The notes beneath the pieces are model-generated. The model was not told where the DNA came from, made no database searches, and saw only the letters and a list, made by a program, of their open reading frames with translations. From an uncultured Coriobacteriaceae bacterium (lineage in GTDB: Bacteria > Actinomycetota > Coriobacteriia > Coriobacteriales > Eggerthellaceae): DNA of 53,172 bases. The translations under genes were made by a program, and so were the position numbers. Positions 8,128 through 45,156 of the stretch are shown here, piece by piece (positions within the stretch are counted from its first letter, which is position 1; every line of letters starts with the position of its first letter). The DNA lies in contig CACZAR010000002.1 in assembly GCA_902779135.1 (NCBI GenBank), positions 1 to 53,172 on the forward strand. Reading direction: 5' to 3'.

Positions 8128-8137
8128 AAACGTTCCA

Positions 8138-9963: not shown

Positions 9964-9983
9964 TGTTGTCAAACAATTACGAA

Positions 9984-10259: not shown

Positions 10260-10329
10260 GAATGGCCGAAATCGGTCATTCTTTTCAATTCACCGTTTCG
10301 GTTGAAAAACAAGCCGAAACGGTGAATTG
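10260..10329 (+). promoter_or_regulatory. Two tandem inverted repeats in the Rrf2 leader
   Basis: The first (GAATGGCCGA with TCGGTCATTC, loop AA) has one wobble pair and is followed by TTTT, like a small terminator. The second, at 10286-10329, is a perfect 16-bp inverted repeat (CAATTCACCGTTTCGG with CCGAAACGGTGAATTG) with a 12-nt spacer. It ends 42 nt before the Rrf2 start. It may be an operator for autoregulation or an RNA structure. Confidence 0.6.
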
Positions 10330-10371
10330 CGATGTGGAACTGCAGTTTGGTTCGGAAAGAAGGCGTGTTAA

Positions 10372-10842: not shown

Positions 10843-10843
10843 C

Positions 10844-10872
10844 TTGCAGAATGTGAGTGATTCAAGTATTAT
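10844..10872 (+). promoter_or_regulatory. Promoter of tRNA-Ser(GCT)
   Basis: TTGCAG and TATTAT separated by 17 bp, ending 14 bp before the tRNA. Confidence 0.65.
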
Positions 10873-10886
10873 TCACCCTTACATAA

Positions 10887-10977
10887 GGAGGAGTGACCGA
10901 GAGGCCGAAGGTGCTCGCCTGCTAAGTGAGTAACGGCCACAAGCCGTTCTAGGGTTCGAATCCCTACTCCTCCGCCA
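10887..10977 (+). tRNA. tRNA-Ser (anticodon GCT)
   Basis: A 91-nt class II tRNA including encoded CCA. The acceptor arm GGAGGAG pairs with CTCCTCC, the anticodon loop is CTGCTAA, the variable arm is long, and the T-loop has GGTTCGAATCC. A terminator follows directly. Confidence 0.95.
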
Positions 10978-10986
10978 GCAGTGACG

Positions 10987-11008
10987 GCCCCCGGAAACGG
11001 GGGCTTTT
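10987..11008 (+). terminator. Terminator after tRNA-Ser(GCT)
   Basis: Stem GCCCCCG / CGGGGGC with a GAAA tetraloop and TTTT. Confidence 0.9.
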
Positions 11009-11029
11009 CATATTGTAAGGAGGGGTTTC

Positions 11030-11884
11030 ATGGAGAGCATCGCGTACTACGATGGAAAGATTGGGTCACCCGATGAGCTAACGGTGCCGTTCAACGATCG
11101 TTCGCATTTCTTCGGTGATGGCATCTACGAAGCCTCGATTGGCGCAAATGGGAAGGTTTTCGCTATCGAGGACCACCTCGATCGCTTCTTCACCAGTGCT
11201 GCGTTGTTCGACATCCATATCCCTCTTTCGAAAGACGACCTCAACAAGTTGCTCCACGAGCTGCTCGCCAAGGTCGACAACCAATCAAGTTTCGTGTATT
11301 GGCAGGTCACACGTGGTGTAGCACCGCGCGAGCACACGTATGACGACAAAGCGCCCGGAAAACTCTGGGTCATGATTCGCCCCGAGTCGCTTCGCGATCC
11401 GAAGGTGCCGATGAAGCTCATCACGCTTGAGGATCGCCGATTCGGCTATGGCAACATCAAGACGCTCAACCTCATGCCAGCCGTCAAGTATTCGCAGGAG
11501 GCGCGTCATGCCGGTGTCGACGAAGCAGTGTTGCATCGCAACGGCGTTGTGACCGAATGTGCGCATTCGAACGTTCACATCCTCAAAGACGGCATCTTGT
11601 ACACGCATCCTAACGACGAGTACATCCTGCGTGGTATCGCGAAGACGCGGCTCATCCAAATCTGCTACCACGAGAGCGTTCCCGTCATTGAGCGTGCGTT
11701 CACGGTTGACGAACTCATGGCGGCGGATGAGGTCATCGTCACCTCTTCGGGCGACTTGCTCATCTTCGCTGATGAGGTCGACGGCGTGCCGGTCGGTGGC
11801 AAGGATCCGGATACGCTCGGGCGCCTGCGCCGCGCTGTGTACCGCGATTTTATTGACTACACGGGTGCCACGCAGCTGTTCTAA
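11030..11884 (+). CDS. dat: D-amino-acid aminotransferase (PLP class IV)
   Basis: A 284-residue fold-type IV PLP enzyme of the branched-chain / D-amino-acid aminotransferase family. Such enzymes make D-glutamate or D-alanine from 2-oxo acids for peptidoglycan. Seen are the family opening YYDGKIG, the NDRSHFFGDGIYE segment, the PLP-binding lysine in NIKTLNLMPAVK (Lys144), and EAVLHRNGVVTECAHSNVHI and YILRGIAKTR in the cofactor-phosphate region. The sequence looks closer to D-amino-acid transaminase than to IlvE or aminodeoxychorismate lyase, but specificity is an inference. AAGGAGGGG precedes the ATG at 11030. The next gene is convergent. Confidence 0.85.
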   Translation: MESIAYYDGKIGSPDELTVPFNDRSHFFGDGIYEASIGANGKVFAIEDHLDRFFTSAALFDIHIPLSKDDLNKLLHELLAKVDNQSSFVYWQVTRGVAPREHTYDDKAPGKLWVMIRPESLRDPKVPMKLITLEDRRFGYGNIKTLNLMPAVKYSQEARHAGVDEAVLHRNGVVTECAHSNVHILKDGILYTHPNDEYILRGIAKTRLIQICYHESVPVIERAFTVDELMAADEVIVTSSGDLLIFADEVDGVPVGGKDPDTLGRLRRAVYRDFIDYTGATQLF

Positions 11885-14806: not shown

Positions 14807-14911
14807 GTTTTCGAAAAGAGCAAAATATTTCAAATCGAACAAGACGGTTCAATCTACCATTGCGTATAACAATCGTGATTGTAGAGTCGGCTAGCTAGGC
14901 AAGGGGGGTGT

Positions 14912-15145
14912 ATGGACGATCGGGAGCTCGAAAACAGGTTGAGACAGTTGTTCAAGCAAGATCTATCTGCTGGGACCGAATCGTTCAGGGACGAATTGCT
15001 CGCCCGTTGTCTTGCCGTGCTTACTGATGAAGCCGCTGCTGAAAGATTTCACGAAGGCGTCGAGCTCGACGATTCTGTTCTGGATTTGCTTGCTGCTGCC
15101 GGTGATCTCACAGCGCTTGATGACAAGCGATTTCCTCAAAGTTAA
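14912..15145 (+). CDS. Small acidic protein of NHLM module A (candidate export substrate)
   Basis: A 77-residue protein that I cannot assign to a named family. It matches the small protein at 44890-45156: both have an ESFRxxLLAxxL stretch (residues 23-34 here) and, later, VELDDSVLDLLAAAGD (residues 50-65), where the other has VKLEDADLEMLAAAEG. An acidic helix ending in small residues is how leaders processed by C39 peptidases look, and a C39 transporter is encoded four genes downstream. If cleaved after AAG it would release a 13-residue peptide. It could equally be a regulator of the sigma factor. AAGGGGGG precedes the ATG. Confidence 0.7.
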   Translation: MDDRELENRLRQLFKQDLSAGTESFRDELLARCLAVLTDEAAAERFHEGVELDDSVLDLLAAAGDLTALDDKRFPQS

Positions 15146-15172
15146 ATAAAGCCAATTTGAGCGCATGTTCTG

Positions 15173-15210
15173 CCAAGGAATTGCTCCTTTGGTGCGTTTT
15201 TTCCTATAAA
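15173..15210 (+). promoter_or_regulatory. Hairpin and possible promoter before sigma factor A
   Basis: CCAAGGA / TCCTTTGG with an ATTGC-type loop forms a small hairpin followed by TTTTTT, so it may terminate the preceding transcript. The same stretch offers TTGCTC (15181-15186), an 18-bp spacer and TATAAA (15205-15210) as a promoter. A nearly identical ATTGCTCCTTTTGG motif lies upstream of sigma factor B at about 36183. Confidence 0.5.
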
Positions 15211-15242
15211 ATTACTACCAGTATTCTTTAGGAGAGACCACC

Positions 15243-15782
15243 ACGAGCGTACAGAAGCAACATCAAGCCATTCATGCACTGCGCGGCGGCAAGAGCGTAG
15301 CTGAGCGCGAATTCGAAAAACTCTATCGCGATAGCTACGGGCTTGTGTTCAGCTATGTGCGTGCTCGCATGAAGAGCGATGCAGACGCCGAAGATATCGT
15401 GGCGGAAGCGTTTTTGAAGGCGGCACGATCATTCAGCGCATTTGACCCCGCACGTGCCAAGTTCAGCACCTGGATGGTGACCATTGCGCGCAACTGCATG
15501 ATTTCGCATTTCCGCAAGGAGCGCGCGACTTCCGCACTCGATGACGTGCCCGAATCAGTTGTTGCCGTCGAAGGCGGTCAAAGCGCCGTCGACGACCGCG
15601 AGCTGGCCTTGCAGCTGCTTGGAGTCCTCGACGATGACGAACGTGCGCTCGTCCTGCTAAAGTATCGGGAGGACATGCGTAACGTTGACATTGCTCGCGA
15701 GATGAACATGAACCCTTCCACCGTTTCGACCGTCCTCGCTCGCGCCATTTGCAAGATGCGCGCTTGCGTGGAGAGGAGCTAA
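15243..15782 (+). CDS. ECF-like sigma-70 factor of NHLM module A (probable non-standard ACG start)
   Basis: An RNA polymerase sigma factor with region 2 (EKLYRDSYGLVFSYVRARMKSDADAEDIVAEAF, continuing to FSTWMVTIARNCMISHFRKER) and region 4 (LLGVLDDDERALVLLKYREDM, then NVDIAREMNMNPSTVSTVLARAI). No anti-sigma gene is adjacent. The first ordinary start, GTG at 15345, would cut region 2 in half, yet the frame is open further back. The only site with a good Shine-Dalgarno (AGGAGAG at about 15231-15237) is ACG at 15243, giving 179 residues. Either ACG is used, or a nearby ATT or CTG, or a T-to-C change damaged an ATG. Transcription probably continues into the export genes 4 bp downstream. Confidence 0.8.
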   Translation, partial: TSVQKQHQAIHALRGGKSVAEREFEKLYRDSYGLVFSYVRARMKSDADAEDIVAEAFLKAARSFSAFDPARAKFSTWMVTIARNCMISHFRKERATSALDDVPESVVAVEGGQSAVDDRELALQLLGVLDDDERALVLLKYREDMRNVDIAREMNMNPSTVSTVLARAICKMRACVERS

Positions 15783-15786: not shown

Positions 15787-16296
15787 ATGCCAGAAGCTTC
15801 GAGATCGATTTTCAACGAGCGCGCAAGCGACAAGCTGCGCAGCCCCGACGACCTGGACAAGTATGTCCAAGTGACCAACCCCAGCGTATGGGTGATACTC
15901 GTAGCATGTATTGCGCTGTTGGCCGGCTTGCTCGCTTGGGGCGTGTTCGGTTCCGTGACGACAAATGTGTCTGCTACGGGTGTAATCGCCAACGGTCAGG
16001 CAACGTGTTTCTTATCAGCAGATAACGTTGCCAAAGTCAGTGTGGGAGATTCTGCGAGTATCGATGGCGAGCTTGTGCGGGTAGCGACGGTCGATAACGT
16101 ACCTGTGTCGCGCAAAGAAGCCGAGGAGATCCTCAAAAGTGATTACCTGGTAAGCGAGCTTGTGAAGGGCGACTGGGCTTACAAAGTCACTTTCGAAGGC
16201 GACACTTCGGATCTGACCGAGAACATCCCGCTCACCGTGAGCATCACGACAGAACGCATTGCGCCCATCAGCTTGATTTTGGGGGGCAATGCGTAA
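15787..16296 (+). CDS. NHLM-type secretion adaptor (HlyD-like), module A
   Basis: A 169-residue membrane-anchored protein: a short cytosolic N-terminus, one helix at about residues 33-55 (VWVILVACIALLAGLLAWGVF), then an extracytoplasmic beta-rich part. The phrase GSVTTNVSATGVIANGQ is typical of HlyD-like membrane-fusion proteins, and the small size with its place before a peptidase-ABC gene matches the NHLM bacteriocin secretion protein. It should pair with the two ABC proteins to export a peptide. It starts 4 bp after the sigma gene and its TAA directly precedes the next ATG. Confidence 0.8.
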   Translation: MPEASRSIFNERASDKLRSPDDLDKYVQVTNPSVWVILVACIALLAGLLAWGVFGSVTTNVSATGVIANGQATCFLSADNVAKVSVGDSASIDGELVRVATVDNVPVSRKEAEEILKSDYLVSELVKGDWAYKVTFEGDTSDLTENIPLTVSITTERIAPISLILGGNA

Positions 16297-18456
16297 ATGC
16301 CCGGCAAGATTCCAAAAGTACCTCAGGTGATGCAGATGGAGGCGCTCGAATGCGGTGCCGCCTGTCTCACCATGATCTTGGCCTATTACGGTAAGTGGGT
16401 ACCGCTCGAGCAGGTTCGCGCCGATTGCGGCGTATCACGCGATGGCTCGAAAGCCTCCAACATGCTGAAAGCAGCGCGCAGCTATGGCCTGGCGGCAAGG
16501 GGCATGACCATGTCAACCCAAGTGTTGAAGAAAAAGGAGCCTTTCCCCTGCATTATCTTCTGGAATTTCAACCATTTCGTCGTGCTGCGCGGGTTCAGAG
16601 GCAAATACGCGCTGATAAACGACCCTGCGCGCGGGCAAGTCAAGGTGCCGATGGACCAATTCGAAGATTCATTCACCGGCATTGTCCTTATGTTCGAGAA
16701 AACCGACGCCTTCGAAGAGGGCGGGGCTAAGCCTGATACCAAAAAATACGCGCGCAAGCGCCTGGAAGGCCTAGGGCCAGCATTGGCGTTTGTCATGCTG
16801 ACGGCGGCCATCACCTCAGCAGTGGGCATCCTAAACACTTCGCTTGGCCAGGTGTTCATGGATCACATTCTCACTGGCAAAAATCCGGACTGGCTCGTAC
16901 CGTTAACCGCAGTGATGCTGATTCTTGCGATTATCATCGGCATCGTGTCGATTTTGAATGCAATCTATCTTGTACGTATTCAAGGCAAGATTGCAGTTGT
17001 CAGCTCTTCGCGCTTCATGCGTCATCTGCTTCATTTGCCCGTGGGGTTCTATGCGCAGCGCATGGTGGGCGATTTGCAGCAACGTCAATCCATGAACGAG
17101 ACAATTGCTTTCAACCTGATCGGACAGCTGGCACCCGTGATCGTGAACACGGTGATGCTGGTGCTGTACTTGGTGATCATGCTGAACTACAGCGTGTTGT
17201 TGACCATTGTGGGTTTGGCAACGGTGGTTTTGAACGCGCTGGTTGCACGCTACATTTCACTCAAGCGCATCAACATCGCGCGTGCAGCGATGGCCGATGC
17301 TGGCAAGCTGTACGCCACGACAGTCGGCGGCATCCAGATGATCGAGACCATCAAGGCCGCTGGTGCCGAGACGGGGTTCTTTGGGCGTTGGGCAGGCTAC
17401 CAGGCATCCGTGAACGAAGGATCAACACGTACAACGCGCCTGAACGAATACCTTGGCATGGTGCCGCAAATGCTGTCGCAGGCGGCCAACATCGCCGTGC
17501 TCGTGTTGGGCATCTGGCTGATCGTAGAGAACCAGTTCACGGCAGGTATGTTGTTGGCATTCACAGGCTTCCTGTCATCGTTCATGGCACCAGTCACTCA
17601 GATGATCAACCTGGGTCAGACGGTCCAGGAAATGCAAACCCAAATGGAGCGCGTTGAAGATGTCATGCGATATCCGACGGACGTGCCCGAAGAGCCTGAG
17701 GAACCAATTGACGTGTCCAAGCTCAAGCGTGAGAAGCTACGTGGCATTGTGGATCTCGAGGGCGTTACGTTCGGTTATTCGCCGTTAGAGCCGCCGCTTA
17801 TCGAAGGGTTTAATTTGCATCTTGATTCTGGCCAGTGGGTTGCGCTTGTCGGCGGTTCTGGTTGCGGTAAGTCCACCATTGCGAAAATCGTGGCAGGTTT
17901 ATACGACCCGTGGGCCGGTGAGGTGCGTTTTGACAGTAAGCCTCTACACGACATCCCCCGTCCTATCTTGCGCGGTTCACTTGCGGTCGTTGACCAGGAC
18001 ATCGTGACCTTCGACGACACCATTTCGAACAACGTGAAGCTTTGGGACAATTCCATCGAGAATTACGAAGTCATTCTCGCTTGTCGCGATGCCGGTATCC
18101 GAGATGTGATCGATGAGCGCGAGGGTGGTTATTCCAGCCGCGTGCTGCCGGGTGGACGCAATTTCTCGGGCGGACAGCTACAGCGTCTCGAGATTGCCCG
18201 CGTGCTTGCCCAGGATCCAACCATCATCATCTTGGATGAGGCCACGAGTGCGCTCGACGCCCAGACCGAAGCCGAAGTCATCAAACGCATCCGCGATCGC
18301 GGCATCACCTGCATTGTGGTGGCGCACAGGCTTTCCACCATACGTGATTGCGACGAAATCATCGTACTCGACGATGGCAAGGTTGTGGAGCGCGGCACCC
18401 ACGAGGAGTTGCTCGCCAGCGACGGCGCTTATGCGGAGTTGGTGCGCAATGACTAA
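16297..18456 (+). CDS. NHLM bacteriocin-system ABC transporter with C39 peptidase domain, module A
   Basis: A 719-residue peptidase-containing exporter. The N-terminal C39 domain has Gln13, catalytic Cys19 in LECGAAC, His93 in NFNHFVVL and Asp109 in INDPARG, a complete protease triad that cleaves leaders after double-glycine-like sites. A six-helix transmembrane domain follows (about residues 160-460). The nucleotide-binding domain has Walker A GGSGCGKST, signature FSGGQ, Walker B IIILDEATSALD and the H-loop VVAHRLST. It starts directly after the adaptor stop and overlaps the next gene by 8 nt. Layout and partner genes match the first ABC protein of NHLM systems. Confidence 0.92.
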   Translation: MPGKIPKVPQVMQMEALECGAACLTMILAYYGKWVPLEQVRADCGVSRDGSKASNMLKAARSYGLAARGMTMSTQVLKKKEPFPCIIFWNFNHFVVLRGFRGKYALINDPARGQVKVPMDQFEDSFTGIVLMFEKTDAFEEGGAKPDTKKYARKRLEGLGPALAFVMLTAAITSAVGILNTSLGQVFMDHILTGKNPDWLVPLTAVMLILAIIIGIVSILNAIYLVRIQGKIAVVSSSRFMRHLLHLPVGFYAQRMVGDLQQRQSMNETIAFNLIGQLAPVIVNTVMLVLYLVIMLNYSVLLTIVGLATVVLNALVARYISLKRINIARAAMADAGKLYATTVGGIQMIETIKAAGAETGFFGRWAGYQASVNEGSTRTTRLNEYLGMVPQMLSQAANIAVLVLGIWLIVENQFTAGMLLAFTGFLSSFMAPVTQMINLGQTVQEMQTQMERVEDVMRYPTDVPEEPEEPIDVSKLKREKLRGIVDLEGVTFGYSPLEPPLIEGFNLHLDSGQWVALVGGSGCGKSTIAKIVAGLYDPWAGEVRFDSKPLHDIPRPILRGSLAVVDQDIVTFDDTISNNVKLWDNSIENYEVILACRDAGIRDVIDEREGGYSSRVLPGGRNFSGGQLQRLEIARVLAQDPTIIILDEATSALDAQTEAEVIKRIRDRGITCIVVAHRLSTIRDCDEIIVLDDGKVVERGTHEELLASDGAYAELVRND

Positions 18457-20635
18457 GTGGATTGAATCGCAAATCGAGACGCGCGCCCAACTTGACTCCG
18501 AAGCTCTCGAGCGCGCCTATACCGAACTTGCTGCTAGCGTTAGCGGGAATCGGTTTGCCCCCCGCGTCACAATTGACGATGTCGAGCAAGTTGACGGAGC
18601 TGCCAAAGCATGCCTCAAATACATGGGCATAACTCCGGGGCCCGTACCGCAAGACGTTGAAGAAGTCGAAGATCGCGTTGACTGGCTCTGCCGGCCGACG
18701 GGTACGATGAGGCGTTTGGTCAGGCTTGAGAAGGATTGGCAGACACGAGCCTTTGGAGCGATGCTCGGCAGCCTCGACACAGGTGAAGTCATCGCTTTGC
18801 TGCCGCGTGGTGTACGGGGTTACTACTATCTCGAGCCGGGCACCGGACGCAAGGTTCACGTGACGCGGGAAGTCGCCGAGCACATCGACGAAAAAGCTAT
18901 CCTGTTCTACAGACCGCTCCCAGCTAAGCCGCTCAAGGTGCGCGATCTCCTGCGCTTCATCTTCGGTGTGTTCGACCGCAACGATTATCTGCTTGTGGTG
19001 TTTGCAGCATTGGTTGTGACGCTTGTCGGGCTTGTGCCCCCTTGGGCAAACCAGGTGGCCTTCAACGTCGTCGCACCGTCTGGTCAAGCGAGGCTCATCC
19101 TGCCCATTGGTGCATTGTTGCTGGGCGTGGCTGTGTCGAAAGCGCTTATAACCGCTTGCCGCAATCTCGTTATGGCACGCGTTTCCACCAAGCTCAACGT
19201 TGTGACCGAGGCGGCCACTTTCGCGCGCGTGCTGTCGTTGCCGACTTCGTTCTTCAAGAACTATTCGTCGGGCGACCTGAGCAGTCGTGTTGCTAACATC
19301 ACCTCGCTTGCGAACTTGCTAGCGTCCATTTTGCTAGGCTCGGGTCTTTCCGCTTTGCTCTCGATCGTCTACATCTTCCAGATCGGAGCTTTTGCCCCGG
19401 CGCTGGCGCTGCCTGCGCTGGCTATCGCTGTTATCCAGGCAGTGCTCACGATCGTGGTTACAATCGCCACCATGCGCTACGAGCAAGCCACGCTTGAAGC
19501 AAGCTCTAAGCTATCGGGTTTGGTGACGGCCTTGTTGAATGGCATCCAGAAGATCAAGCTCGCGGGTGCCGAAGACCGCGCCTTTGCGCAGTGGGCTCAT
19601 GGCTATTCGAAATACGCGCGCTCTGCCTATAACCGTCCCACAATCTTATATGCACTGCCTGCGCTCGTGGCATTCATTGGACTGTTGGGCAACATCGCCA
19701 TTTACTACCTTGCTGGTTCGACAGGTGTGTCAACTGGGAACTACATGGCTTTCAACGTCGCGTATGGACAGGTCACATCAGCTATCATGGCGCTGGCAGG
19801 CGTAGCAGGCCAAATCGCCCAAATCAACCCCATGCTCGAAATGGTTGCGCCCGTCCTTGAGGCCGAGCCCGAGATTGCAGAAGATAAGCCGAGCATCGAG
19901 TCGCTGAACGGCGCCGTTGAGGTGTCGAACGTGTCGTTCCGCTACGCCGAGAATCAGCCCTACATCCTTCGCGACCTTTCCTTCAAGGTGGACCCAGGCG
20001 AATATGTGGCGCTTGTTGGCAAGTCTGGATGTGGCAAATCGACCATCTTGCGCTTGTTGCTAGGCTTCGAGAAAGCTGAGCGCGGCAGCATACTCTTCGG
20101 TCAACATGATGTGACGAAAGTCGACTTGAGGTCGTTGCGCCAACATGTCGGCGTGGTGATGCAGGATGGCAAGCTGTTCATGGGCAACATTTCGGATAAC
20201 ATCACGATTTCCACGCCGACGGCCACGCTCGATGACGCATGGGAGGCGGCCGAAATCGCTGGCATAGCGGACGATATCCGCAAGATGCCCATGGGCATGC
20301 AAACGTTCGTTACCGAAGGCGGCGGTGGCGTTTCGGGCGGTCAGCGCCAACGCATCATGATTGCGCGCGCCGTATGCGGCAAGCGTAGGATTCTCATGCT
20401 TGACGAGGCCACGAGTGCGCTTGACAACAAGACCCAGAAGCACGTGAGCGACTCGCTCGAAAAGCTCGAATGTACGCGCATCGTGGTTGCGCATCGCCTC
20501 TCGACCGTGCAGCATTGCGATCGCATCCTTGTCGTCGATGGCGGGCGCATTGCTGAAGAAGGCACCTACGACGAGCTGATCGAAAAGAAGGGTTTGTTTG
20601 CCGAGCTGGTTGAGCGCCAGAGGCTTGATTCGTAG
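18449..20635 (+). CDS. NHLM bacteriocin-system ABC transporter, second ATP-binding protein, module A
   Basis: A 728-residue ABC exporter without a peptidase domain. The first ~160 residues are soluble, a helical region that in this family replaces the C39 domain. A membrane domain and an ATPase domain follow, the latter with Walker A GKSGCGKST, signature VSGGQRQR and Walker B ILMLDEATSALD. The ATG at 18449 overlaps the end of the preceding gene (ATGACTAA) and is preferred over earlier in-frame starts inside that gene. It probably forms a heterodimer with, or works in series with, the peptidase transporter. No modification enzyme follows, unlike module B. Confidence 0.9.
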   Translation: MTKWIESQIETRAQLDSEALERAYTELAASVSGNRFAPRVTIDDVEQVDGAAKACLKYMGITPGPVPQDVEEVEDRVDWLCRPTGTMRRLVRLEKDWQTRAFGAMLGSLDTGEVIALLPRGVRGYYYLEPGTGRKVHVTREVAEHIDEKAILFYRPLPAKPLKVRDLLRFIFGVFDRNDYLLVVFAALVVTLVGLVPPWANQVAFNVVAPSGQARLILPIGALLLGVAVSKALITACRNLVMARVSTKLNVVTEAATFARVLSLPTSFFKNYSSGDLSSRVANITSLANLLASILLGSGLSALLSIVYIFQIGAFAPALALPALAIAVIQAVLTIVVTIATMRYEQATLEASSKLSGLVTALLNGIQKIKLAGAEDRAFAQWAHGYSKYARSAYNRPTILYALPALVAFIGLLGNIAIYYLAGSTGVSTGNYMAFNVAYGQVTSAIMALAGVAGQIAQINPMLEMVAPVLEAEPEIAEDKPSIESLNGAVEVSNVSFRYAENQPYILRDLSFKVDPGEYVALVGKSGCGKSTILRLLLGFEKAERGSILFGQHDVTKVDLRSLRQHVGVVMQDGKLFMGNISDNITISTPTATLDDAWEAAEIAGIADDIRKMPMGMQTFVTEGGGGVSGGQRQRIMIARAVCGKRRILMLDEATSALDNKTQKHVSDSLEKLECTRIVVAHRLSTVQHCDRILVVDGGRIAEEGTYDELIEKKGLFAELVERQRLDS

Positions 20636-36347: not shown

Positions 36348-36842
36348 ATGGACGACCGCCAACTCGAAAACCTGTACCGCGCCAACTTCCAGAGGGTGTA
36401 TAACTACGCCTACTACTCGTTGCTGAATTCTGCCGAAGCCGAGGATGTGACCAGCGCGGTTTTCGTCAAGGTCGTCGCGAACATCGACAAGTATGATGCC
36501 TCTCGGGCCTCGTTCGGCACGTGGATCACGCGCATTGCCCATAACGTTTTGGTCGATTACCACCGCACGCGCAAACCGACCGTGTCGCTCGAAAAAGTCG
36601 TGGTCGACGAGCCTGCGGTCGAAGATGACTATCCTGTGTTGGATGACCGGCAACAACGCGTCGCCAAACTGCTCGCTTGCCTCTCGGAGCAAGATCGCGA
36701 ACTGATATACCTGAAGTACTACCAAGAAAAGAAGAACGTCGAAATTGCGCAGTTGCTCGACATGAATCCATCGACGGTCGCTACGCGCCTGCGACGAGCG
36801 CTCATCGCCATGCGCGCTTGCGCTGAAGAGGAAACCTCATGA
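36348..36842 (+). CDS. ECF-like sigma-70 factor of module B
   Basis: A 164-residue sigma factor, paralogous to the one at 15243. Region 2 runs from LYRANFQRVYNYAYYSLLNSAEAEDVTSAVF to FGTWITRIAHNVLVDYHRTRK. Region 4 has LACLSEQDRELIYLKYYQEKK and VEIAQLLDMNPSTVATRLRRAL. The C-termini of both end in an M/RAC(A/V)E-type sequence. The ATG at 36348 follows CAGGGG; a TTG two codons earlier is possible. It overlaps the adaptor gene by 4 nt (ATGA), so it is translated with the exporter. No anti-sigma gene is seen. Confidence 0.88.
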   Translation: MDDRQLENLYRANFQRVYNYAYYSLLNSAEAEDVTSAVFVKVVANIDKYDASRASFGTWITRIAHNVLVDYHRTRKPTVSLEKVVVDEPAVEDDYPVLDDRQQRVAKLLACLSEQDRELIYLKYYQEKKNVEIAQLLDMNPSTVATRLRRALIAMRACAEEETS

Positions 36843-37390
36843 CGCAGGAGCGGGGATCTGGGCAAGTACAGCAGGGCGAACGGCAAGAACTGTTCCGGCA
36901 GACCGCTCTCGACCAGGCATCGGCGGCGACGGGGCTCGACGCATACATCAAGGCGGTACGGCCCAGCACGTGGCTCGTTGCCGTGGCGGCGGTCATTGCC
37001 ATGGTGGCCTTGCTCATCTGGGGCTTCACCGCCAAGGTGGCTACGACCATAAACGACAACGGTGTCGTGCACGACGGCCAGGTGGTCAGCTACCTGACCG
37101 AGCAGAACCGAAAGGAAGTCAGTGTCGGAGATCGCGCGCTCGTCGACAACGAAGAAGCGACTGTCGTCGACGTGTCCAAGACACCGCTTTCTTCGCGCGA
37201 TGCTGGGGCTGTGGCTAATGACGAGTACACACTCGAAATGCTCAAGCTCGAGGACTGGAATTACCCCGTGTACCTGACCATGGACAACTTGCCCAAGGAA
37301 GGTACCCTGGTCGACGTGATGATCACGACTGACGAGGTGGCGCCCATTTCGTTCCTTCTCGACTCGGAGCTGGGCAATGAATCGAGCTAA
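36839..37390 (+). CDS. NHLM-type secretion adaptor (HlyD-like), module B
   Basis: A 183-residue homologue of the adaptor at 15787. It has a cytosolic N-terminus of ~44 residues, a helix at about 45-66 (WLVAVAAVIAMVALLIWGF), then an extracytoplasmic beta-rich part beginning KVATTINDNGVVHDGQ. Both adaptors end in a similar VxITTxxxAPISFLL / VSITTERIAPISLIL stretch. It overlaps the sigma factor gene and, by 14 nt, the peptidase transporter gene. Confidence 0.8.
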   Translation: MTQERGSGQVQQGERQELFRQTALDQASAATGLDAYIKAVRPSTWLVAVAAVIAMVALLIWGFTAKVATTINDNGVVHDGQVVSYLTEQNRKEVSVGDRALVDNEEATVVDVSKTPLSSRDAGAVANDEYTLEMLKLEDWNYPVYLTMDNLPKEGTLVDVMITTDEVAPISFLLDSELGNESS

Positions 37391-39548
37391 AGGGCCCATC
37401 CGCACCGTTCCCATGGTCATGCAGATGGAGGCGCTCGAATGCGGTGCCGCCTGCTTGGCCATGATTCTCGCGTATCACGGCAAGTGGGTAGGGCTTGACC
37501 AAGTGCGCCACGACTGCGGCGTGTCGCGCGACGGCTCGCGCGCGGTCAACATCCTGAAGGCGGCTCGTTCCTACGGACTCGTGGCCGATGGCTACAGTCT
37601 CGATCCCGAATCGCTTGCGACTATGCCGCTGCCCTGCATCATCCATTGGAATTTCAACCATTTCGTTGTGCTGAAGGGCTTCACGGGCAAATGGGCCTAT
37701 CTCAACGATCCCGCACGCGGTTCGATTCGTGTGTCGCTCGAAGAGTTCGACCGTTCGTTCACGGGTATTGCGCTGTGCTTCGAACCGGGCGAGTCGTTCG
37801 AGGAAGGGGGTAAGCCGGCAAGCGTCGTCTCATTCGCGCGCTCACGTCTCAAAGGCGCTGCCGGTCCCACCGTTGTCATCGCCATTGCCGCCGTTATTGG
37901 GGCGTTTGCTGGCATCGCCAATGCAACGTTCTCGCGTGTGTTCATGGACCGCATCCTGACGGGCATCGACCAGAATTGGCTCGTGCCGCTCGTCGTGTTG
38001 ATGGCTATCGTCGCTATCTTGCAGTGCATCGCCGCCGGCATCAACTCTGTCAGCGCGCTGCGCGTGCGGGGGAAGTTTGCCGTTTCTGCAAGCACTGAAT
38101 TCGTTTGGCACCTGCTGCGGCTCCCCGTGTCGTTTTACGAGCAGCACAACATCGGTGACTTGCAGCAGCGCCAATCCGAGAACGAGAGCGTCGCCTACAC
38201 GCTCATCTCGCAGCTAGCCCCCGTGATGCTCAACGTGGTTCTTCTCGTGGTGTACCTGGTCGTCATGGTGCGCTACAGCTTGATGCTGACGCTGGTTGGG
38301 TTGTTCACCGTTGTGGTGAACCTGTTCGTGGTCAACGCCACAGCTCGTGCCCGTGTCAACGTCACGCGCGTGCAATTGCGCGACAACGGTCGGCTGTACT
38401 CGTCGACGATCGGCGGCATCGACCAAATCGAAAGCATTAAGGCCTCGGGTGCCGAAGACGGCTATTTCGCCCAGTGGAGCGGTTATCAGGCGGCGCTCGC
38501 AGCGACCCAAGCGCGTTTGGCCAACATCACGCAATATCTCGGGGCGCTCCCCTCGGCCTTGGTTCAGTTGACGAACGTCATCGTGTTGACCCTGGGCGTG
38601 TGGCTCATCATGGAAGGCGAGTTCTCGGTGGGCATGTTGCTGGCGTTCCAGAGCCTGCTTTCGCAGTTCTTCTCACCCATCAACTCGCTCCTCTCGCTCA
38701 ATCAACAGGTGCAGGAAATGCGCACGTCGATGGAGCGCATCGATGATGTGTTAAAGAGCGAGCCCGATGTCCCGGACGACATCGAAGATTGCCGTCCTTC
38801 GGGAGAAAAACTCTCGGGCAAGCTTGACGTCGCTGGACTGACGTTTGGCTACTCTCCGCTTGGGGCGCCAGTCATTTCCAGCTTCGATTTGCACGTGAAA
38901 CCGGGTGAGTGGGCCGCACTCGTCGGTGACTCCGGATGTGGGAAATCGACCATCGCCAAGCTGATTGCGGGTTTGTACAAACCTTGGGAGGGGTCGGTGT
39001 CGTTTGACGACATTCCCGCTGAAGAGGTGCCGCGCATGAAGCTCAAGCGGTCTCTTTCAGTTGTCGATCAAGACATCGTGCTGTTCGACGGCACCATTAT
39101 GGACAACTTGCGTCTGTGGGACGGCTCGATCGACGAAGCCGATGTGTTCCGCGGCGCGCGTGATGCGTCCATACATGAGGCCATTGTGGCGCGGCCCGAT
39201 GGATACGACCAGGCGGTCACATCCGATGGAGCCAATTATTCGGGTGGAGAACGCCAACGTCTCGAAATAGCCCGCGCCTTGTCCCAAAATCCCACGATCA
39301 TGATCCTTGACGAGGCCACGAGTGCACTCGATGCCAAGACCGAGCAAGAGGTCATGCAGGCAATACGCGCACGCAACATCACGTGCATCGTGGTTGCGCA
39401 CCGCCTATCGACCATTCGCGATTGCAGTCAGATCGTGGTGCTCGAAAAGGGACACGTGGTGGAACGGGGCACGCATGACGAGCTGATGGGGCTCAACGGT
39501 CGTTATGCAGCGCTTGTGAACGACGGCGATACGGGAGGTGCGCGATGA
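37377..39548 (+). CDS. NHLM bacteriocin-system ABC transporter with C39 peptidase domain, module B
   Basis: A 723-residue peptidase-containing exporter closely similar to the product at 16297. The C39 triad is complete: Cys22 in LECGAAC, His95 in NFNHFVVL and Asp111 in LNDPARG. The membrane domain spans about residues 160-460. The ATPase domain has Walker A GDSGCGKST, signature YSGGERQR and Walker B IMILDEATSALD. It should remove the leader of the Nif11-type precursor at 42966 after its Gly-Gly and export the core. It overlaps both neighbours. Confidence 0.92.
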   Translation: MNRAKGPIRTVPMVMQMEALECGAACLAMILAYHGKWVGLDQVRHDCGVSRDGSRAVNILKAARSYGLVADGYSLDPESLATMPLPCIIHWNFNHFVVLKGFTGKWAYLNDPARGSIRVSLEEFDRSFTGIALCFEPGESFEEGGKPASVVSFARSRLKGAAGPTVVIAIAAVIGAFAGIANATFSRVFMDRILTGIDQNWLVPLVVLMAIVAILQCIAAGINSVSALRVRGKFAVSASTEFVWHLLRLPVSFYEQHNIGDLQQRQSENESVAYTLISQLAPVMLNVVLLVVYLVVMVRYSLMLTLVGLFTVVVNLFVVNATARARVNVTRVQLRDNGRLYSSTIGGIDQIESIKASGAEDGYFAQWSGYQAALAATQARLANITQYLGALPSALVQLTNVIVLTLGVWLIMEGEFSVGMLLAFQSLLSQFFSPINSLLSLNQQVQEMRTSMERIDDVLKSEPDVPDDIEDCRPSGEKLSGKLDVAGLTFGYSPLGAPVISSFDLHVKPGEWAALVGDSGCGKSTIAKLIAGLYKPWEGSVSFDDIPAEEVPRMKLKRSLSVVDQDIVLFDGTIMDNLRLWDGSIDEADVFRGARDASIHEAIVARPDGYDQAVTSDGANYSGGERQRLEIARALSQNPTIMILDEATSALDAKTEQEVMQAIRARNITCIVVAHRLSTIRDCSQIVVLEKGHVVERGTHDELMGLNGRYAALVNDGDTGGAR

Positions 39549-41623
39549 GCGATTTTGAAACGCAGCTTCCCATGAATGGCCTCGATGAGGCCTTGGCCGT
39601 TTTGCTTGCCCATTTCAATGTGAAACCTTCTAAAACACTGCCCATCGGCGACACAATCGAGCAACGGCTCGACAGCATGCTGCATCCCCACGGCATCATG
39701 AGACGCAAAGTCCGTCTGGAAGGGCAGTGGTACAAGGACGCGATCGGTGCGATGCTGGGCGCTTTGCAGGATGGTAGTCCTATCGCGCTGCTTCCCCATG
39801 GTGCGGCGGGCTATTCTTACGTCGACCCCACAACCGGCAAACGCGTACGCGTGACGGGTGCCAATGCGGGCACTATCCAACAAGACGCACTGTGCCTGTA
39901 CCAGCCGCTTCCCTTGAAACCGCTGGGTCTTCGCGACTTGGCCTCGTTCGGTTTGCGGTCACTCGGGAAAGCTGACTACGTGACGATCGTGCTGGTCAGC
40001 GTGATTGCGACCGTCATAGGCCTGCTTCCCGCATGGGCGAACCAGGTCATCTTCGACCAGGTCGTGCCTTACGGCAAGCCATCGCTCGTCCTGCCAGTTG
40101 CCGCGCTGCTGATCGGAGCGGTGCTTTCGCAGGCAGTCATAGGCCTTGCCCGGTCGCTCGTGACGGCACGTATCGGCACCAAGCTCAACGTGCAGGTGCA
40201 AGCAGCTGTGATGGCGCGCCTTTTGCTGTTGCCGCCACGGTTCTTCGTGGAGCACCAGCCTGGCGAGCTGACCAACCGAGCCATGGCGGTTACGCAGCTC
40301 GTGCAGCTGCTCATGAAGGTCGTGTTCACCACGGGGCTCTCGTCGGTGCTGTCGCTCGTCTACATCGTGCAAATCGCCAGTTTCGCACCGCAGCTCACCA
40401 TCCCCGCACTTTTCGTCTTGGTTGTGAATGCGATCGTCACCACCGTGGCGACGCTCGCCAACATGCGTTACGACCAGAAGCAGCTCGAGAGCACGGCGGG
40501 CCTTTCGGGCACGCTGGTCTCGCTGCTTTCGGGCATAAGCAAGATCAAGCTGGCGGGCGCAGAGCGTCGAGCTTTCACCCGCTGGGCCCAAGATTACGCT
40601 CAAGTTGCCAAGAGCATTTACGATCGCCCGCTGTTGCTGAAAGCCTCAAGCGTTATCACGACGGCCACGGGGTTGGCGGGCACCATCCTCATCTACTTCC
40701 TCGCAAGTGCCACACAGGTATCGGTTGCCGATTACATGGCGTTCAACGTTGCATACGGTATGGTCACGGGCGCCATCATGGCACTTGCCGGTATCGGTAC
40801 GCAAATCGCGGCTATCCAACCGACCATGAAGCTCGTCGAGCCCGTGCTGAAATGCCAGCCCGAAGCACGCGAGGGCGACCATCCTGTTGAGGACGTCACG
40901 GGCGCCATCGAACTGACGGACGTCACGTTCCGCTACAGCGAGGACGGCCCGGCCATCGTCGAAGATTTAAGCCTATCGATTCATCCCGGCGACTACGTGG
41001 CGATTGTCGGCCGCACGGGATGCGGCAAATCGACCCTGGTGCGCCTATTGCTTGGCTTCGAGGAGCCCGAACTAGGCACCATCTGCTACGATGGGCGCGA
41101 TCTTGATACGCTCGACAAGCGTTCGTTGCGCCGCCATATCGGCGTCGTCCTGCAAACCGGCAGGTTGGTGTCGGGTAACATCTTCCAAAACATCACGCTT
41201 TCCGCACCTTACCTGACGATGGACGAGGCGTGGGAAGCGGCTGAGTTGGCTGGCATTGCCGACGACATCCGCGCAATGCCCATGGGCATGTTCACGCGCA
41301 TCTCCGAAGGTTCGGGAAGCATCTCGGGTGGCCAACGCCAGCGCTTGCTCATAGCGCGTTCGGTTGCCGCAAAACCCAAGTTGCTCATCTTCGACGAGGC
41401 TACAAGTGCGCTTGACAACATTACGCAGCGTCAGGTGTCCGACGCCCTGGGCGCGCTTGACTGCACGCGCGTTGTGGTAGCGCATCGGTTGTCCACGATT
41501 CGCAACTGCGATCGCGTTCTCGTGCTCGACGGCGGACGTATCGTCGAGGATGGCACGTATGACGATCTGCTTGCGCAAAACGGCGTTTTCGCTGAGTTGG
41601 TGGAGCGTCAGAGGTTGATATAG
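39545..41623 (+). CDS. NHLM bacteriocin-system ABC transporter, second ATP-binding protein, module B
   Basis: A 692-residue ABC exporter lacking the peptidase domain, paralogous to the product at 18449. The soluble N-terminal ~140 residues contain MRRKVRLEGQWYKDAIGAMLGAL, which aligns with the other copy. A membrane domain and an ATPase domain follow, with GRTGCGKST, ISGGQRQR and LLIFDEATSALD. It overlaps the previous gene by 4 nt. About 85 bp separate it from the glycosyltransferase gene, with no terminator, so that gene is probably on the same transcript. Confidence 0.9.
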   Translation: MSDFETQLPMNGLDEALAVLLAHFNVKPSKTLPIGDTIEQRLDSMLHPHGIMRRKVRLEGQWYKDAIGAMLGALQDGSPIALLPHGAAGYSYVDPTTGKRVRVTGANAGTIQQDALCLYQPLPLKPLGLRDLASFGLRSLGKADYVTIVLVSVIATVIGLLPAWANQVIFDQVVPYGKPSLVLPVAALLIGAVLSQAVIGLARSLVTARIGTKLNVQVQAAVMARLLLLPPRFFVEHQPGELTNRAMAVTQLVQLLMKVVFTTGLSSVLSLVYIVQIASFAPQLTIPALFVLVVNAIVTTVATLANMRYDQKQLESTAGLSGTLVSLLSGISKIKLAGAERRAFTRWAQDYAQVAKSIYDRPLLLKASSVITTATGLAGTILIYFLASATQVSVADYMAFNVAYGMVTGAIMALAGIGTQIAAIQPTMKLVEPVLKCQPEAREGDHPVEDVTGAIELTDVTFRYSEDGPAIVEDLSLSIHPGDYVAIVGRTGCGKSTLVRLLLGFEEPELGTICYDGRDLDTLDKRSLRRHIGVVLQTGRLVSGNIFQNITLSAPYLTMDEAWEAAELAGIADDIRAMPMGMFTRISEGSGSISGGQRQRLLIARSVAAKPKLLIFDEATSALDNITQRQVSDALGALDCTRVVVAHRLSTIRNCDRVLVLDGGRIVEDGTYDDLLAQNGVFAELVERQRLI

Positions 41624-41708: not shown

Positions 41709-42893
41709 ATGATGAGGATTCTCTGGTTCTGCATTCCCGCATATGGGCATACTAATCCGACCATCGAAGTTGTTCGCGAGCTTGTGCGGCGTGGCCACGA
41801 AGTGCGCTACTACTCCTTCGAGGAGTTCCGGGAGAAGATTGAAGGTGCTGGGGCGGACTTTATATCCTGCGACGCCTATTTGCCCGCCCTCGATGCAAAG
41901 AGCGAGCGCAAGCTCCGCGAGGTGTCAACCACCGAGATGAGCGTGCAGTCGTTTCGCATCACCGCCACCCTCGATCCCATCATCTCGCAGGATGTGGAAT
42001 CATGGCAGCCTGATGTGCTGGTCACGGATTCCGCTTGCTTTTGGGGCAAACTCACAGCAATTAAGTTCAACCTTCCCTGGGTGTGCTCCACCACCACGTT
42101 CGCATTCAATAAGGATTCTGCCCAATACATGCAACAGAGTGCATCGGAGATTGCCGATATGGTCTTGGGACTTCCGCGCATGAACTGCGAGATTCGCAAG
42201 CTGCGGGGCTTGGGCTACCATGTGAAGAACGTCCTCGACATCGTGCAGAACAAGCCTGACGACAACACCATCGTCTACACCTCACGCACCTTCCAGCCCT
42301 GCGCCGAGACTTTCGATGAGATACATTACCGCTTCGTGGGCCCGTCCGTGCGCGAGGTGGAGCCGCGCGAGAAGGCTGGCCGCCCGCTGGTGTTCGCATC
42401 ACTCGGCACGGTCATCAACGACCGCCCTGGTTTTTACCGCACGCTCATCGAAGCCCTGCACGATGAGGATGTCGACCTGCTCATATCCTGCGGTAAGGCG
42501 TTCGACCCAACGGTTTTGGGCGAACTTCCCGCCAACATGCGCGTCGAGCACTACGTGGATCAGATGGAGGTGCTCTCGCGGGCGAGTCTGTTCGTCACGC
42601 ACTGCGGCATGAACAGTGCATCGGAGGGCATGTGGATGGCAGTGCCCGAACTGCTCTTCCCCCTGACGGGCGAACAGCGGGCGGTGGCGCGGCGCGTGGC
42701 CGAGGTCGGCGCCGGCGTTCTCCTTGACGAGCACGATGCCAAAGATGCGCTAAAGCTGAAAGCGGCTGTGCTCTGTGCGCTTGCGAACGAGGACATTTCC
42801 ACAGGGGCTGCCCGCATGAGGGAAGACCTTCGTTCATGCGTCGGTCCTTCCGGTGCAGCCGACTTCATCGAGCAGTGTTCCCTGAAACGTTAA
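41709..42893 (+). CDS. MGT-type (GT1) glycosyltransferase in the RiPP cluster
   Basis: A 394-residue GT-B glycosyltransferase like those that glycosylate macrolides and other natural products. The N-terminal acceptor domain opens with ILWFCIPAYGHTNPTIEVVRELVRRGHEV, including the conserved His. The C-terminal donor domain has PLVFASLGTV and the sugar-nucleotide motif FVTHCGMNSASEGMWMAVPELLFPLTGEQ. AAGGAGAAG precedes the ATG at 41709; a second ATG follows at once. Its place between exporter and precursor suggests it glycosylates the exported peptide, or a self-protection target; this is inference. Confidence 0.88.
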   Translation: MMRILWFCIPAYGHTNPTIEVVRELVRRGHEVRYYSFEEFREKIEGAGADFISCDAYLPALDAKSERKLREVSTTEMSVQSFRITATLDPIISQDVESWQPDVLVTDSACFWGKLTAIKFNLPWVCSTTTFAFNKDSAQYMQQSASEIADMVLGLPRMNCEIRKLRGLGYHVKNVLDIVQNKPDDNTIVYTSRTFQPCAETFDEIHYRFVGPSVREVEPREKAGRPLVFASLGTVINDRPGFYRTLIEALHDEDVDLLISCGKAFDPTVLGELPANMRVEHYVDQMEVLSRASLFVTHCGMNSASEGMWMAVPELLFPLTGEQRAVARRVAEVGAGVLLDEHDAKDALKLKAAVLCALANEDISTGAARMREDLRSCVGPSGAADFIEQCSLKR

Positions 42894-42906
42894 ACCCCCG
42901 TGCTCG

Positions 42907-42912
42907 TATAAT
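42907..42912 (+). promoter_or_regulatory. -10 element before the precursor peptide gene
   Basis: A perfect TATAAT, 54 bp before the precursor start and after the glycosyltransferase stop, could give the precursor its own stronger transcript. No good -35 is seen. Confidence 0.4.
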
Positions 42913-42965: not shown

Positions 42966-43289
42966 GTGAACCTGGAAGACTACATCAAGGAACTAAGCCC
43001 CGAACTGCAGGAGAAGGCCCGCGCGTGCGGCAGCGTCGATGAGCTGTTGGTGCTCGCCAAGGAGAACAAGATTCCATTGCCCGATGAGGCGCTTACCGCC
43101 ATCGCAGGTGGGCAGGATGGCGGAACCGTGAACTGTGGGAAACTGCATTGTCCGCAGTGCAGCTGCACCAAGATCGCATACCAGTACGAGGATCGCGGGA
43201 ACTACTACCAGTATTTTTACACGTGCACTGGGTGCGGTTACGAGTGGTCCGAGAGATGGCCCAAATACCCTGATCCGGGCATAAACTAA
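42966..43289 (+). CDS. Nif11-like leader RiPP precursor with zinc-ribbon-like core
   Basis: A 107-residue precursor. The leader (NLEDYIKELSPELQEKARAC, then SVDELLVLAKENKIPLPDEA and LTAIAGG) is a clear Nif11-type leader ending in Gly48-Gly49, the expected C39 cleavage site. The 58-residue core has six cysteines (57, 62, 65, 67, 87, 90) and is rich in Tyr. CPQC and CTGC with about 20 residues between, then GYEW, look like a zinc ribbon. The core may be a metal-binding mini-protein, a substrate for radical SAM thioether formation, or both. The GTG at 42966 follows AAGAGGAGG; the TTG at 42960 is too close to that site. Confidence 0.88.
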   Translation: MNLEDYIKELSPELQEKARACGSVDELLVLAKENKIPLPDEALTAIAGGQDGGTVNCGKLHCPQCSCTKIAYQYEDRGNYYQYFYTCTGCGYEWSERWPKYPDPGIN

Positions 43290-43296: not shown

Positions 43297-44694
43297 ATGC
43301 GTTACCGCTTGAAACAAGGTTGCAGCCTGCGTGGATGGCTGTTCAATCCGTACGCTCTCGTGCGGGACGATTGGTATATGCCCACCAATTTGTCAGTGGG
43401 CGAGTTCAACGTGTTGGTGCGCTGCGATGGGGAAACCGTCTTCGCGGAAGATGAACCCGACGAGGTGCGTGCGATTCTGGCGCGTTTCCTCGAAGAAGGC
43501 GTGATTGAAGAATGCGCTGCTCCTGATCCCGTTGCTGACGCCCAGGGATACAAGTTGTATCCCTGCTGGCGGTTTAACCTGATCAACTGGGCTATCACGG
43601 GCAGGTGCAACTACAACTGCAAGCACTGCTTCGCAGCAGCCGATCTCAATCCGATTGCGGCGCATCCCACAACCGAACAGTGCCTGGCATTCGTGGATCA
43701 GTTGGCCTCCTGCGGCATCCGCCACGTATGGCTCACGGGTGGTGAGCCGCTTTTGCGCAACGATTTCCCGCAAATCGCGCAAGCACTTGCCGATGCAGGC
43801 ATATCAATCGACGACATTGGCACGAACGCCTCGCTCGTCACTGACGAATTGCTTGACGCCCTTAAGGCGATGGGCCACCATCCCCAATTCAACATCAGCT
43901 TCGACGGACTTGGACATCACGATTGGCTGCGCGGCGTGCCGGGCGCCGAAGAGCGCACGCTTGAGGCGATTCAGCTGCTGAAACACCGCGGCTACCGCGT
44001 GAAGGTGCAGTATTGCCTGTGGGACGGCAATCTGGATACGCTGCGCGAGACCACGCTACGCTTAGCGGATATGGGCGTCGATCATTTGCGCCCCATCCGC
44101 GTGGTCGAGGCGCCGCGGTGGAAGGCTGCCGAATACGGCCATACGCTGGACTATCGCGCCTATTGCGATTTGATGGTGGAATACCTTGACTGGTATGTGG
44201 GCGAGAATCTGCCCATGGAACTGGAAGTGTGGTCATTGCTCGATTACATGCCCGCTTCCAGGCAATGCCGGCTCACACCGGTTAAGCGCTGCAGCGTCGA
44301 ACGCGATCGGCTCCAGCCTGTGTGCGGCGATGCGCGCAACATGCCCTTCGTGGCGAGCAACGGCAGCCTGACGTTATGCAACCAAATCTCAGGTTGGGAG
44401 ACGGCTCACGGCGTCGAGCACGGCAACGTATACAAGACACCGCTGGCCGAGCTGTTATCTAACTCGCCCTTCACGCAGCAACTGTTGGTTACCCGTGCCC
44501 AAGTGCGCGAGCACAATCCCCAATGCCAAACGTGTGAGTTTGCCAGTGAGTGCAATTGCGGCTGCCGGGCAGTTGCGCTTGCCATGACCGACGACTTGTT
44601 GGCAGCTGACCCCACGCAGTGCATCTTCTTCAAGGGCGGCTACCGCGAGCGTTTCTCGCAAGTCCTTGCTACGCACAACATCACCATTTGGTAA
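43297..44694 (+). CDS. Radical SAM/SPASM peptide maturase
   Basis: A 465-residue radical SAM enzyme. An N-terminal ~85-residue part may be a peptide-recognition (RRE/PqqD-like) fold. The SAM-binding cluster motif CNYNCKHC follows, then LTGGEPLLR. The C-terminal SPASM region is cysteine-rich (CRLTPVKRCS, PVCGDARN, LTLCNQ, CQTCEFASECNCGCRA), able to hold auxiliary Fe-S clusters. Such enzymes install thioether or carbon crosslinks in ribosomal peptides. The gene starts 7 nt after the precursor stop, with no strong RBS of its own, suggesting coupling. The bond it forms cannot be told from sequence. Confidence 0.92.
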   Translation: MRYRLKQGCSLRGWLFNPYALVRDDWYMPTNLSVGEFNVLVRCDGETVFAEDEPDEVRAILARFLEEGVIEECAAPDPVADAQGYKLYPCWRFNLINWAITGRCNYNCKHCFAAADLNPIAAHPTTEQCLAFVDQLASCGIRHVWLTGGEPLLRNDFPQIAQALADAGISIDDIGTNASLVTDELLDALKAMGHHPQFNISFDGLGHHDWLRGVPGAEERTLEAIQLLKHRGYRVKVQYCLWDGNLDTLRETTLRLADMGVDHLRPIRVVEAPRWKAAEYGHTLDYRAYCDLMVEYLDWYVGENLPMELEVWSLLDYMPASRQCRLTPVKRCSVERDRLQPVCGDARNMPFVASNGSLTLCNQISGWETAHGVEHGNVYKTPLAELLSNSPFTQQLLVTRAQVREHNPQCQTCEFASECNCGCRAVALAMTDDLLAADPTQCIFFKGGYRERFSQVLATHNITIW

Positions 44695-44821
44695 ATCTGC
44701 CAAAGCGCCCGGCGCGTGGGCCATAAACCCCTTTTTTCTTCCAATTGGGTGAAACGGTCTTTCGGCTCATTCGTATAGGGGAATAGGAAGAAAAGAAAGA
44801 AGTGGGATTATCTTCTACGAA

Positions 44822-44889: not shown

Positions 44890-45156
44890 ATGGACGTGAT
44901 GAGTGACAACTCGTTCGAGAGCAGCATGAAGTGCGATTTCCCGGTACGGGAATCGTTCCGCGAAGCTTTGCTTGCAGACTTGCTTTCGATGGACGAAAGC
45001 GAGTTAGCATCAGCGTCGTCAGACGAATCGATGGAGCCTCACAAGAGTGCGGCGCGGATAGTCAAGCTCGAAGACGCTGATTTGGAGATGCTTGCCGCGG
45101 CAGAAGGTGAAGATCGAGCACTCAAACACCCGCTTGTGGACCCGTTCGAACAGTAA
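44890..45156 (+). CDS. Small acidic protein of NHLM module B (candidate export substrate or regulator)
   Basis: An 88-residue protein related to that at 14912-15145. ESFREALLADLL at residues 21-32 matches ESFRDELLARCL, and VKLEDADLEMLAAAEG matches VELDDSVLDLLAAAGD. The rest is acidic and serine-rich. No named family is recognised. Its presence in both sigma/exporter modules, first in A and last in B, points to a shared role as peptide substrate, leader-like partner or sigma-factor modulator. TACAAT at 44876-44881 ends 8 nt before the ATG at 44890, so the mRNA may be leaderless; a second ATG is at 44899. The spacer 44695-44821 holds only a weak GGG/CCC hairpin with six T. Confidence 0.65.
   Translation: MDVMSDNSFESSMKCDFPVRESFREALLADLLSMDESELASASSDESMEPHKSAARIVKLEDADLEMLAAAEGEDRALKHPLVDPFEQ

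Follow-up and report, generated by a model that had tools for sequence, protein, structure and literature searches.

A family of small proteins with a leader-like motif, associated with ECF sigma factors and C39 exporters in Coriobacteriales

Introduction

LahT, which together with PCAT1 represents the NHLM/PCAT exporters, requires suitable residues at positions -12, -7 and -4 of its substrates (PMC6363468), and C39 domains have a narrow Gly-Gly cleft (PMC6959990). In the portion of PMC7142297 that is drawn on here, the pairs MibX/MibW and PspX/PspW of lantibiotic clusters are described as an ECF sigma factor and a cognate regulator set over peptide genes; that portion reports no leader motif in either pair. 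In the class II ECF anti-sigma factor CnrY, two helices wrap sigma4 and sigma2 (PMC7406223), and FlgM, the exported anti-sigma-28 factor of flagella, is a precedent for sigma control that senses export (PMC8036289). A literature search on ECF sigma factors paired with NHLM or C39 proteins found no paper on such a pairing.

The window analysed here, a stretch of 53,172 nucleotides from an uncultured Coriobacteriaceae bacterium (contig CACZAR010000002.1), contains two export modules, A and B, each with an ECF sigma factor, a C39-ABC exporter and a small protein. A comparison with LahT and PCAT1 reveals that module A passes both TIGR03796 and TIGR03797 and that its C39 domain is near LahT150, whereas the module exporters have a very short HlyD-like adaptor and a neighbourhood that includes an ECF sigma factor. 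The arrangement is also like that of MibX/MibW and PspX/PspW, as far as their description allows the pairs to be likened; in the present genome, however, the peptide genes lie dispersed.

Results

Gene content of the two modules

Module A consists, in order, of a small protein, an ECF sigma factor, a short HlyD-like adaptor, a C39-ABC exporter and a second ABC subunit. Sigma factor A (15246..15782, +; Sigma70_r2 1.1e-19, Sigma70_r4_2 1.1e-8) has no ATG, GTG or TTG ahead of region 2 (searched in 15210-15345), which points to a rare start codon or to an error in the assembly; the ribosome-binding site AGGAGA precedes an ACG at 15243. The adaptor (15787..16296, +; 169 aa) matches the N-terminal part of TIGR03794 at 2.2e-13, below the cut-off, and apparently lacks a coiled-coil hairpin. 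Exporter A (NHLM ABC1; 16297..18456, +) scores 932.9 bits against TIGR03796 (cut-off 853.3). Its C39 domain (16297-16740) is a close relative of LahT150 (6mpz, E = 5.5e-63), keeps the catalytic Cys-His-Asp in the alignment with 6mpz and is fused to the ABC exporter. The second subunit (NHLM ABC2; 18449..20635, +) scores 712.1 bits against TIGR03797 (cut-off 709.4); its start is approximate, the frame being open from 18113.

Module B repeats this layout without the leading small protein and continues with a glycosyltransferase, a Gly-Gly precursor, a radical SAM protein and small protein B. Sigma factor B (36348..36842, +; Sigma70_r2 5.7e-18) is 37% identical to sigma factor A. The adaptor (36839..37390, +) is the counterpart of that in module A by position and size, and the two adaptors have just 169-183 aa. 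Exporter B (37377..39548, +) contains a C39 domain (PF03412, E = 1.8e-37) and is followed by a second ABC subunit (39545..41623, +), an ORF assigned by position and similarity. The macrolide-family glycosyltransferase (41709-42893; TIGR01426 above cut-off) adjoins the double-glycine precursor and the radical SAM enzyme. The precursor (42969..43289, +), with an IAGG site, is matched by the precursor profile at E = 1.2e-20, the protein itself being in that profile, and the radical SAM/SPASM protein (43297..44694, +) matches PF04055 at 3.6e-21 and PF13186 at 1.6e-5. Small protein A opens module A and small protein B closes module B, as the initial annotation had it. A terminator-like hairpin is present at 15171-15194, between small protein A and sigma factor A, and would favour an excess of the small protein; as a ratio-setting trait of the family it was ruled out, being found in 3 of 34 loci only.

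The small-protein family

Small protein A (type 1) is encoded at 14912..15145 (+), with an ATG start and the ribosome-binding site AAGGGGGG 5' of the frame, and small protein B (type 2) at 44890..45156 (+); both frames lie where they were first placed, with 77 and 88 codons. The two blocks previously described as common to the proteins do align (BLASTP of the pair, E = 4e-4), and the relatives found separately by each protein form a single alignment of 22 sequences, in which F25, L29, L57, A61-A63 and G64 are invariant. Searches of Pfam, NCBIfam and the PDB give no matching family, in agreement with the earlier remark that no recognised domain is present. Small proteins A and B represent two sub-types within a single family, which is real and undescribed.

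A search for related loci from small protein A alone yields seven, and of the 395 genomes covered for the order by profile searches, 60 contain the family; in the samples of the class (296 genomes) and phylum (286 genomes), the same kind of search finds none outside the order. The 73 family hits include a few Gly-Gly precursors (for example, G071:C2 and G291:C124). The related contigs are titled as uncultured Eggerthellaceae and Coriobacteriia from ruminant and deer gut. An N-terminal block, FRDELLARCL, is conserved in most members. The dN/dS values indicate coding selection, with strong constraint on the N-terminal part (up to about 0.25) and the C-terminal motif (0-0.27); the linker and the tail (about 0.4-0.8 in the tail) are weakly constrained. 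An AlphaFold2 model, which is poor (pLDDT 65), places helices at residues 3-15, 21-38, 40-46 and 54-68.

A leader-like motif without the double glycine

The C-terminal motif of the family, LxDDxLxLLAAA followed by G, corresponds to the recognition helix of a double-glycine leader with its hydrophobic residues at -12, -7 and -4; it reads VELDDSVLDLLAAA followed by GD in small protein A and KLEDADLEMLAAA followed by EG in small protein B. In the numbering used for C39 substrates, the 66 distinct motifs have L, I, V or M at -12, L or I at -7, L, I or V at -4, and mostly A or S at -3. The hydrophobic -12/-7/-4 pattern that defines double-glycine leaders is therefore present in 66/66, a result to be read with the extraction pattern, which required L or I at -7 and permitted other residues at -12. 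Gly-Gly, Gly-Ala or Gly-Ser at -2/-1, the other mark of such leaders, occurs in 0/66. Instead, Ala-Ala occupies -2/-1 in all 66; the pattern demanded A at -2 and A or S at -1, yet all 68 proteins matched it, and the search profile itself carries AAAG, which is a caveat on this count. Gly is found at +1 in 58 of the 66. For the LAAA site, the lack of conservation of which the initial annotation had named as evidence against its proposal, the Ala-Ala is thus retained in every motif.

The residues at -12, -7, -4 and -3 are common to the family motif and the Gly-Gly precursors of the same loci. When the family profile is applied to 14 such precursors, the precursors rank above nearly all of 5,813 other small ORFs; the best four score higher than every one of these ORFs and of 2,800 shuffles, and the weaker ones are less clearly separated. 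An hhalign comparison of the family with the Gly-Gly leaders gives E = 3.8e-5 at a probability of 71%; the aligned region spans 41 columns and reaches into the N-terminal block. These comparisons show homology, at the profile level, between the small proteins and double-glycine leaders, and the C39-like site suggested earlier is real in register, with hydrophobic residues at -12, -7 and -4 and Ala at -3. As judged from its residues, the motif conforms to the recognition rules of LahT-type C39 domains, and binding of the small protein by a C39 domain is plausible. Cleavage is doubtful: Ala-Ala at -2/-1 fits the narrow Gly-Gly cleft badly, which favours slow or no cleavage.

A comparison with Nif11/NHLP-type leaders and precursors reveals likenesses in the hydrophobic -12/-7/-4 positions, the acidic -10, Ala or Ser at -3, the ECF-type promoters described below and the homology of the profiles. 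Unlike these, the small proteins have Ala-Ala at -2/-1 and Met or Leu at -5, lack a cargo-like core, mostly carry the FRDELLARCL block and are tied to sigma factors. Their tails are hypervariable, 9-30 residues long and rich in G, D, P and E, with 0.7% Cys; no product-like C-terminal core peptide is found in them by composition or dN/dS, and the reading of the tail as a RiPP core was ruled out by its composition and weak constraint. The weak constraint also argues against a released signal peptide. The short acidic peptide that the initial annotation proposed to be released is accordingly not upheld, given the variability of the tail and the misfit of Ala-Ala to the C39 cleft; the 13 residues stated for it hold if counted from after the G, whereas a cut after LAAA leaves 14.

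Promoters and a putative regulon

An ECF-type promoter, AAGACG-N16-CGTATA, precedes small protein A (14841..14868, +; pattern match 14843-14868). The form TGAAAC-N16-CGTA precedes the Gly-Gly precursor (42883..42908, +) and small protein B (44750..44775, +), and a like form stands before type 2 relatives. Using the patterns [AG][AG]GAC[AG]-N15-17-CGTA or, for type 2, TGAAAC-N14-18-CGTA, a promoter is found upstream of 40 of 68 family genes, compared with 0.7% of random windows from the same loci; since the patterns were derived from those same upstream regions, the count is descriptive for the family genes, and the Gly-Gly genes serve as the independent check. The precursor profile matches 22 genes of this genome (18 strongly), and 10 of these 22 Gly-Gly peptide genes carry one of the two promoter forms upstream. 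The TGAAAC form is the mark of one sub-family among these genes. Within the window it occurs at two sites against 0.32 expected, before the Gly-Gly precursor and small protein B; genome-wide there are 14 sites of this type, compared with 9 in the reversed control, and of the 14, five stand before Gly-Gly genes and one before small protein B. A genome-wide scan with the module A pattern finds 13 sites, which is at chance level (14 in the reversed control), so that the regulon of sigma factor A is drawn from the upstream regions alone.

About 20 double-glycine peptide genes (loci L212-L233) are dispersed over the genome, for example at C27:10683-10886, C13:20771-21010, C58:9427-9609, C100:6223-6399 and C26:8758-8985, and many encode a CxxC zinc-ribbon-like cargo. 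The ECF sigma factor appears to switch on peptides and exporter. The assignment of each promoter form to a sigma factor, including the reading of the small-protein promoter by the neighbouring sigma factor, is inferred from gene position.

Association and co-evolution with the sigma factor

A SIG-like ECF gene is found no more than 3 kb away from 52 of the 73 family genes; for 48 the distance is at most 1 kb, and 43 of the 52 are on its strand. Of the genes without a nearby sigma gene, several are located where a contig ends, and some of type 2 stand at the far end of the module B cluster. Divergent members with little left beyond LSDDELELLAAAG mostly still adjoin a sigma gene. Both genes are present in 57 genomes, the small protein alone in 3 and the sigma factor alone in 1, and a C39 domain is encoded in 60/60 family genomes compared with 37/335 others; both sets of counts ignore shared ancestry. 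Of the 69 loci examined, 33 have an exporter of this type within 10 kb. In loci such as L038, L045, L131, L140 and L147, and in most of genus g93, the small protein and the sigma gene occur but such an exporter does not. Homologues are not always beside the transporter, which the initial annotation had proposed to check; most adjoin a sigma factor. The counter-case named earlier, homologues away from any C39 transporter or sigma factor, does not speak against the proposal, as every family genome encodes a C39 domain.

The small-protein gene is usually 5' of the sigma gene. Genes for anti-sigma factors usually follow their sigma gene. A second small-protein copy in L032 has no adjoining sigma gene. 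In L192 (G068, 7999-11364), from the one genome with a sigma factor in which no small protein was found, an apparent RsbW-like HATPase frame, seen by eye, follows the sigma gene. Genes for STAS and SpoIIE-type phosphatase proteins occur near the exporter in L042 (3800-7275), L041, L043 and L032, with a fusion to a HATPase in L042, which suggests partner switching in the same system.

In 26 loci with all three genes, distances between small proteins correlate with those between sigma factors at 0.79, and at 0.71 when the exporter is taken into account. Subsets that leave out type 2, the divergent exporter or a group of loci whose sigma gene is on the opposite strand give partial correlations of 0.46-0.73, with a permutation p of 5e-4 in every case. 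With the sigma factor given, the partial correlation of small protein and exporter is about 0. The small protein tracks the sigma factor and not the exporter, which indicates that the sigma factor is its dedicated partner. Co-evolution is consistent with contact between the two, in a suggestive way only, and a common gene neighbourhood alone can yield part of the signal.

Discussion

We tentatively favour, at somewhat less than an even chance, a small regulator that binds the sigma factor and has a leader-like arm by which it reports how occupied the exporters are, in a logic like that of FlgM. Small proteins A and B would be the dedicated partners of the two ECF sigma factors and coreless relatives of double-glycine precursors, in which Ala-Ala-Ala before Gly replaces x-Gly-Gly before x. 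Each would consist of an N-terminal helix, a variable linker and a C-terminal leader-like helix, restraining the sigma factor as a soluble anti-sigma factor with two helices, comparable to CnrY, while the leader-like helix would be a ligand of the exporter C39 domain. Exporters with free capacity may bind or remove the small protein, which would leave the sigma factor active; once Gly-Gly precursors fill the exporters, the small protein would accumulate and the regulon would be turned off. The small protein may be exported whole, slowly cleaved or only bound, and Ala-Ala would favour slow or no cleavage.

The family resembles CnrY in its small size, short helices and flexible linker, and in being encoded beside the ECF sigma factor, apparently in its regulon. 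A place beside the ECF gene and in its regulon is expected of ECF anti-sigma genes and is seen here (52/73 within 3 kb; ECF-type promoter in 40/68, presumably read by the neighbouring sigma factor). Unlike CnrY, the small protein is predicted to be soluble, shows no sequence match, has a leader-like second helix and has its gene usually before the sigma gene. That gene order counts against an anti-sigma reading, as does the lack of a match to a known anti-sigma family: no known anti-sigma domain in Pfam, NCBIfam or the PDB is matched, and the Hx3Cx2C zinc motif is not in the 22-sequence alignment. Control may in truth lie with the partner-switching genes (STAS, SpoIIE, HATPase) that some relatives carry close to the exporter or the sigma gene, which also counts against our explanation, as do the second copy in L032 and the poor AlphaFold2 model. 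The likeness to FlgM lies in the proposed logic only, a regulator level set by a sigma-controlled export machine (PMC8036289); the sigma class is another, the exporter is a C39 ABC exporter instead of flagellar type III, and export of the small protein is only proposed.

The strongest rival is a plain anti-sigma factor, both helices of which would bind the sigma factor, with the likeness to leaders due to ancestry or chance and with no present exporter contact. Adjacency to and co-evolution with the sigma factor instead of the exporter agree with it, as do the many loci without an adjoining exporter and the fixed way in which Ala-Ala and Met or Leu at -5 deviate from leaders. It is nevertheless unlikely, in view of the C39 domain in every family genome and of positions -12, -7, -4 and -3, which are kept exactly as a C39 domain needs them. 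Such a complete recognition helix with its site blocked, under the same promoters as the precursors, would also suit a pseudo-substrate with the exporter as its sole target, a leader that cannot be cut and that keeps the C39 domain gated or inhibited for as long as precursors have yet to be made; we consider this very unlikely, since co-evolution with the exporter disappears once the sigma factor is accounted for and the small protein is often far from an exporter.

The initial annotation offered two alternatives, an export substrate or a modulator of sigma factors. As a substrate, the small protein would be cut after LAAA by the C39 exporter, freeing the tail as a peptide, perhaps a signal. 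Homology to leaders, the LahT-like C39 domain and the regulon common with Gly-Gly peptides speak for this, and signal peptides can differ between species; it is still quite unlikely for a weakly constrained tail of 9-30 residues, a site that sets Ala-Ala against a narrow Gly-Gly cleft (PMC6959990) and a protein dedicated to the sigma gene and not to the exporter gene. Modulation of the sigma factors fares better: the link to the sigma factor, seen in adjacency, co-inheritance and co-evolution, is stronger than the case for the C39-like site, and sigma binding itself is what we infer. Except for the released peptide, both halves find support and belong together. The least probable reading is an anti-sigma factor under regulated proteolysis, in which a cut after AAA would expose a -LAAA tag for ClpXP and free the sigma factor, comparable to RsiW and sigma AntA. 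The invariant Ala-Ala would suit it, a fragment of RsiW is cleared by ClpXP (PMC5358783), and ClpXP recognises the C-terminal Ala-Ala of sigma AntA (PMC7142297); the candidate protease, however, is hypothetical, Ala-Ala is a poor C39 site, and the Gly at +1 is left unexplained.

To return to the regulator with a leader-like arm, its fullest form is possible and more doubtful: a double-glycine precursor would have evolved into an anti-sigma factor and kept its leader helix as a probe for free C39 exporters, so that the sigma factor would sense export traffic and tune accordingly a regulon of about 20 secreted peptides encoded at scattered sites. The analysis gives an undescribed small-protein family a testable role. 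It also outlines what seems to be a regulon of ECF sigma factors, with promoters common to small regulators linked to exporters and to dispersed double-glycine genes, and these promoters provide a handle for finding double-glycine peptides in uncultured gut Coriobacteriia. If exporter sensing is true, this would be, as far as we know, the first C39 ABC exporter that feeds back on transcription via a leader mimic.
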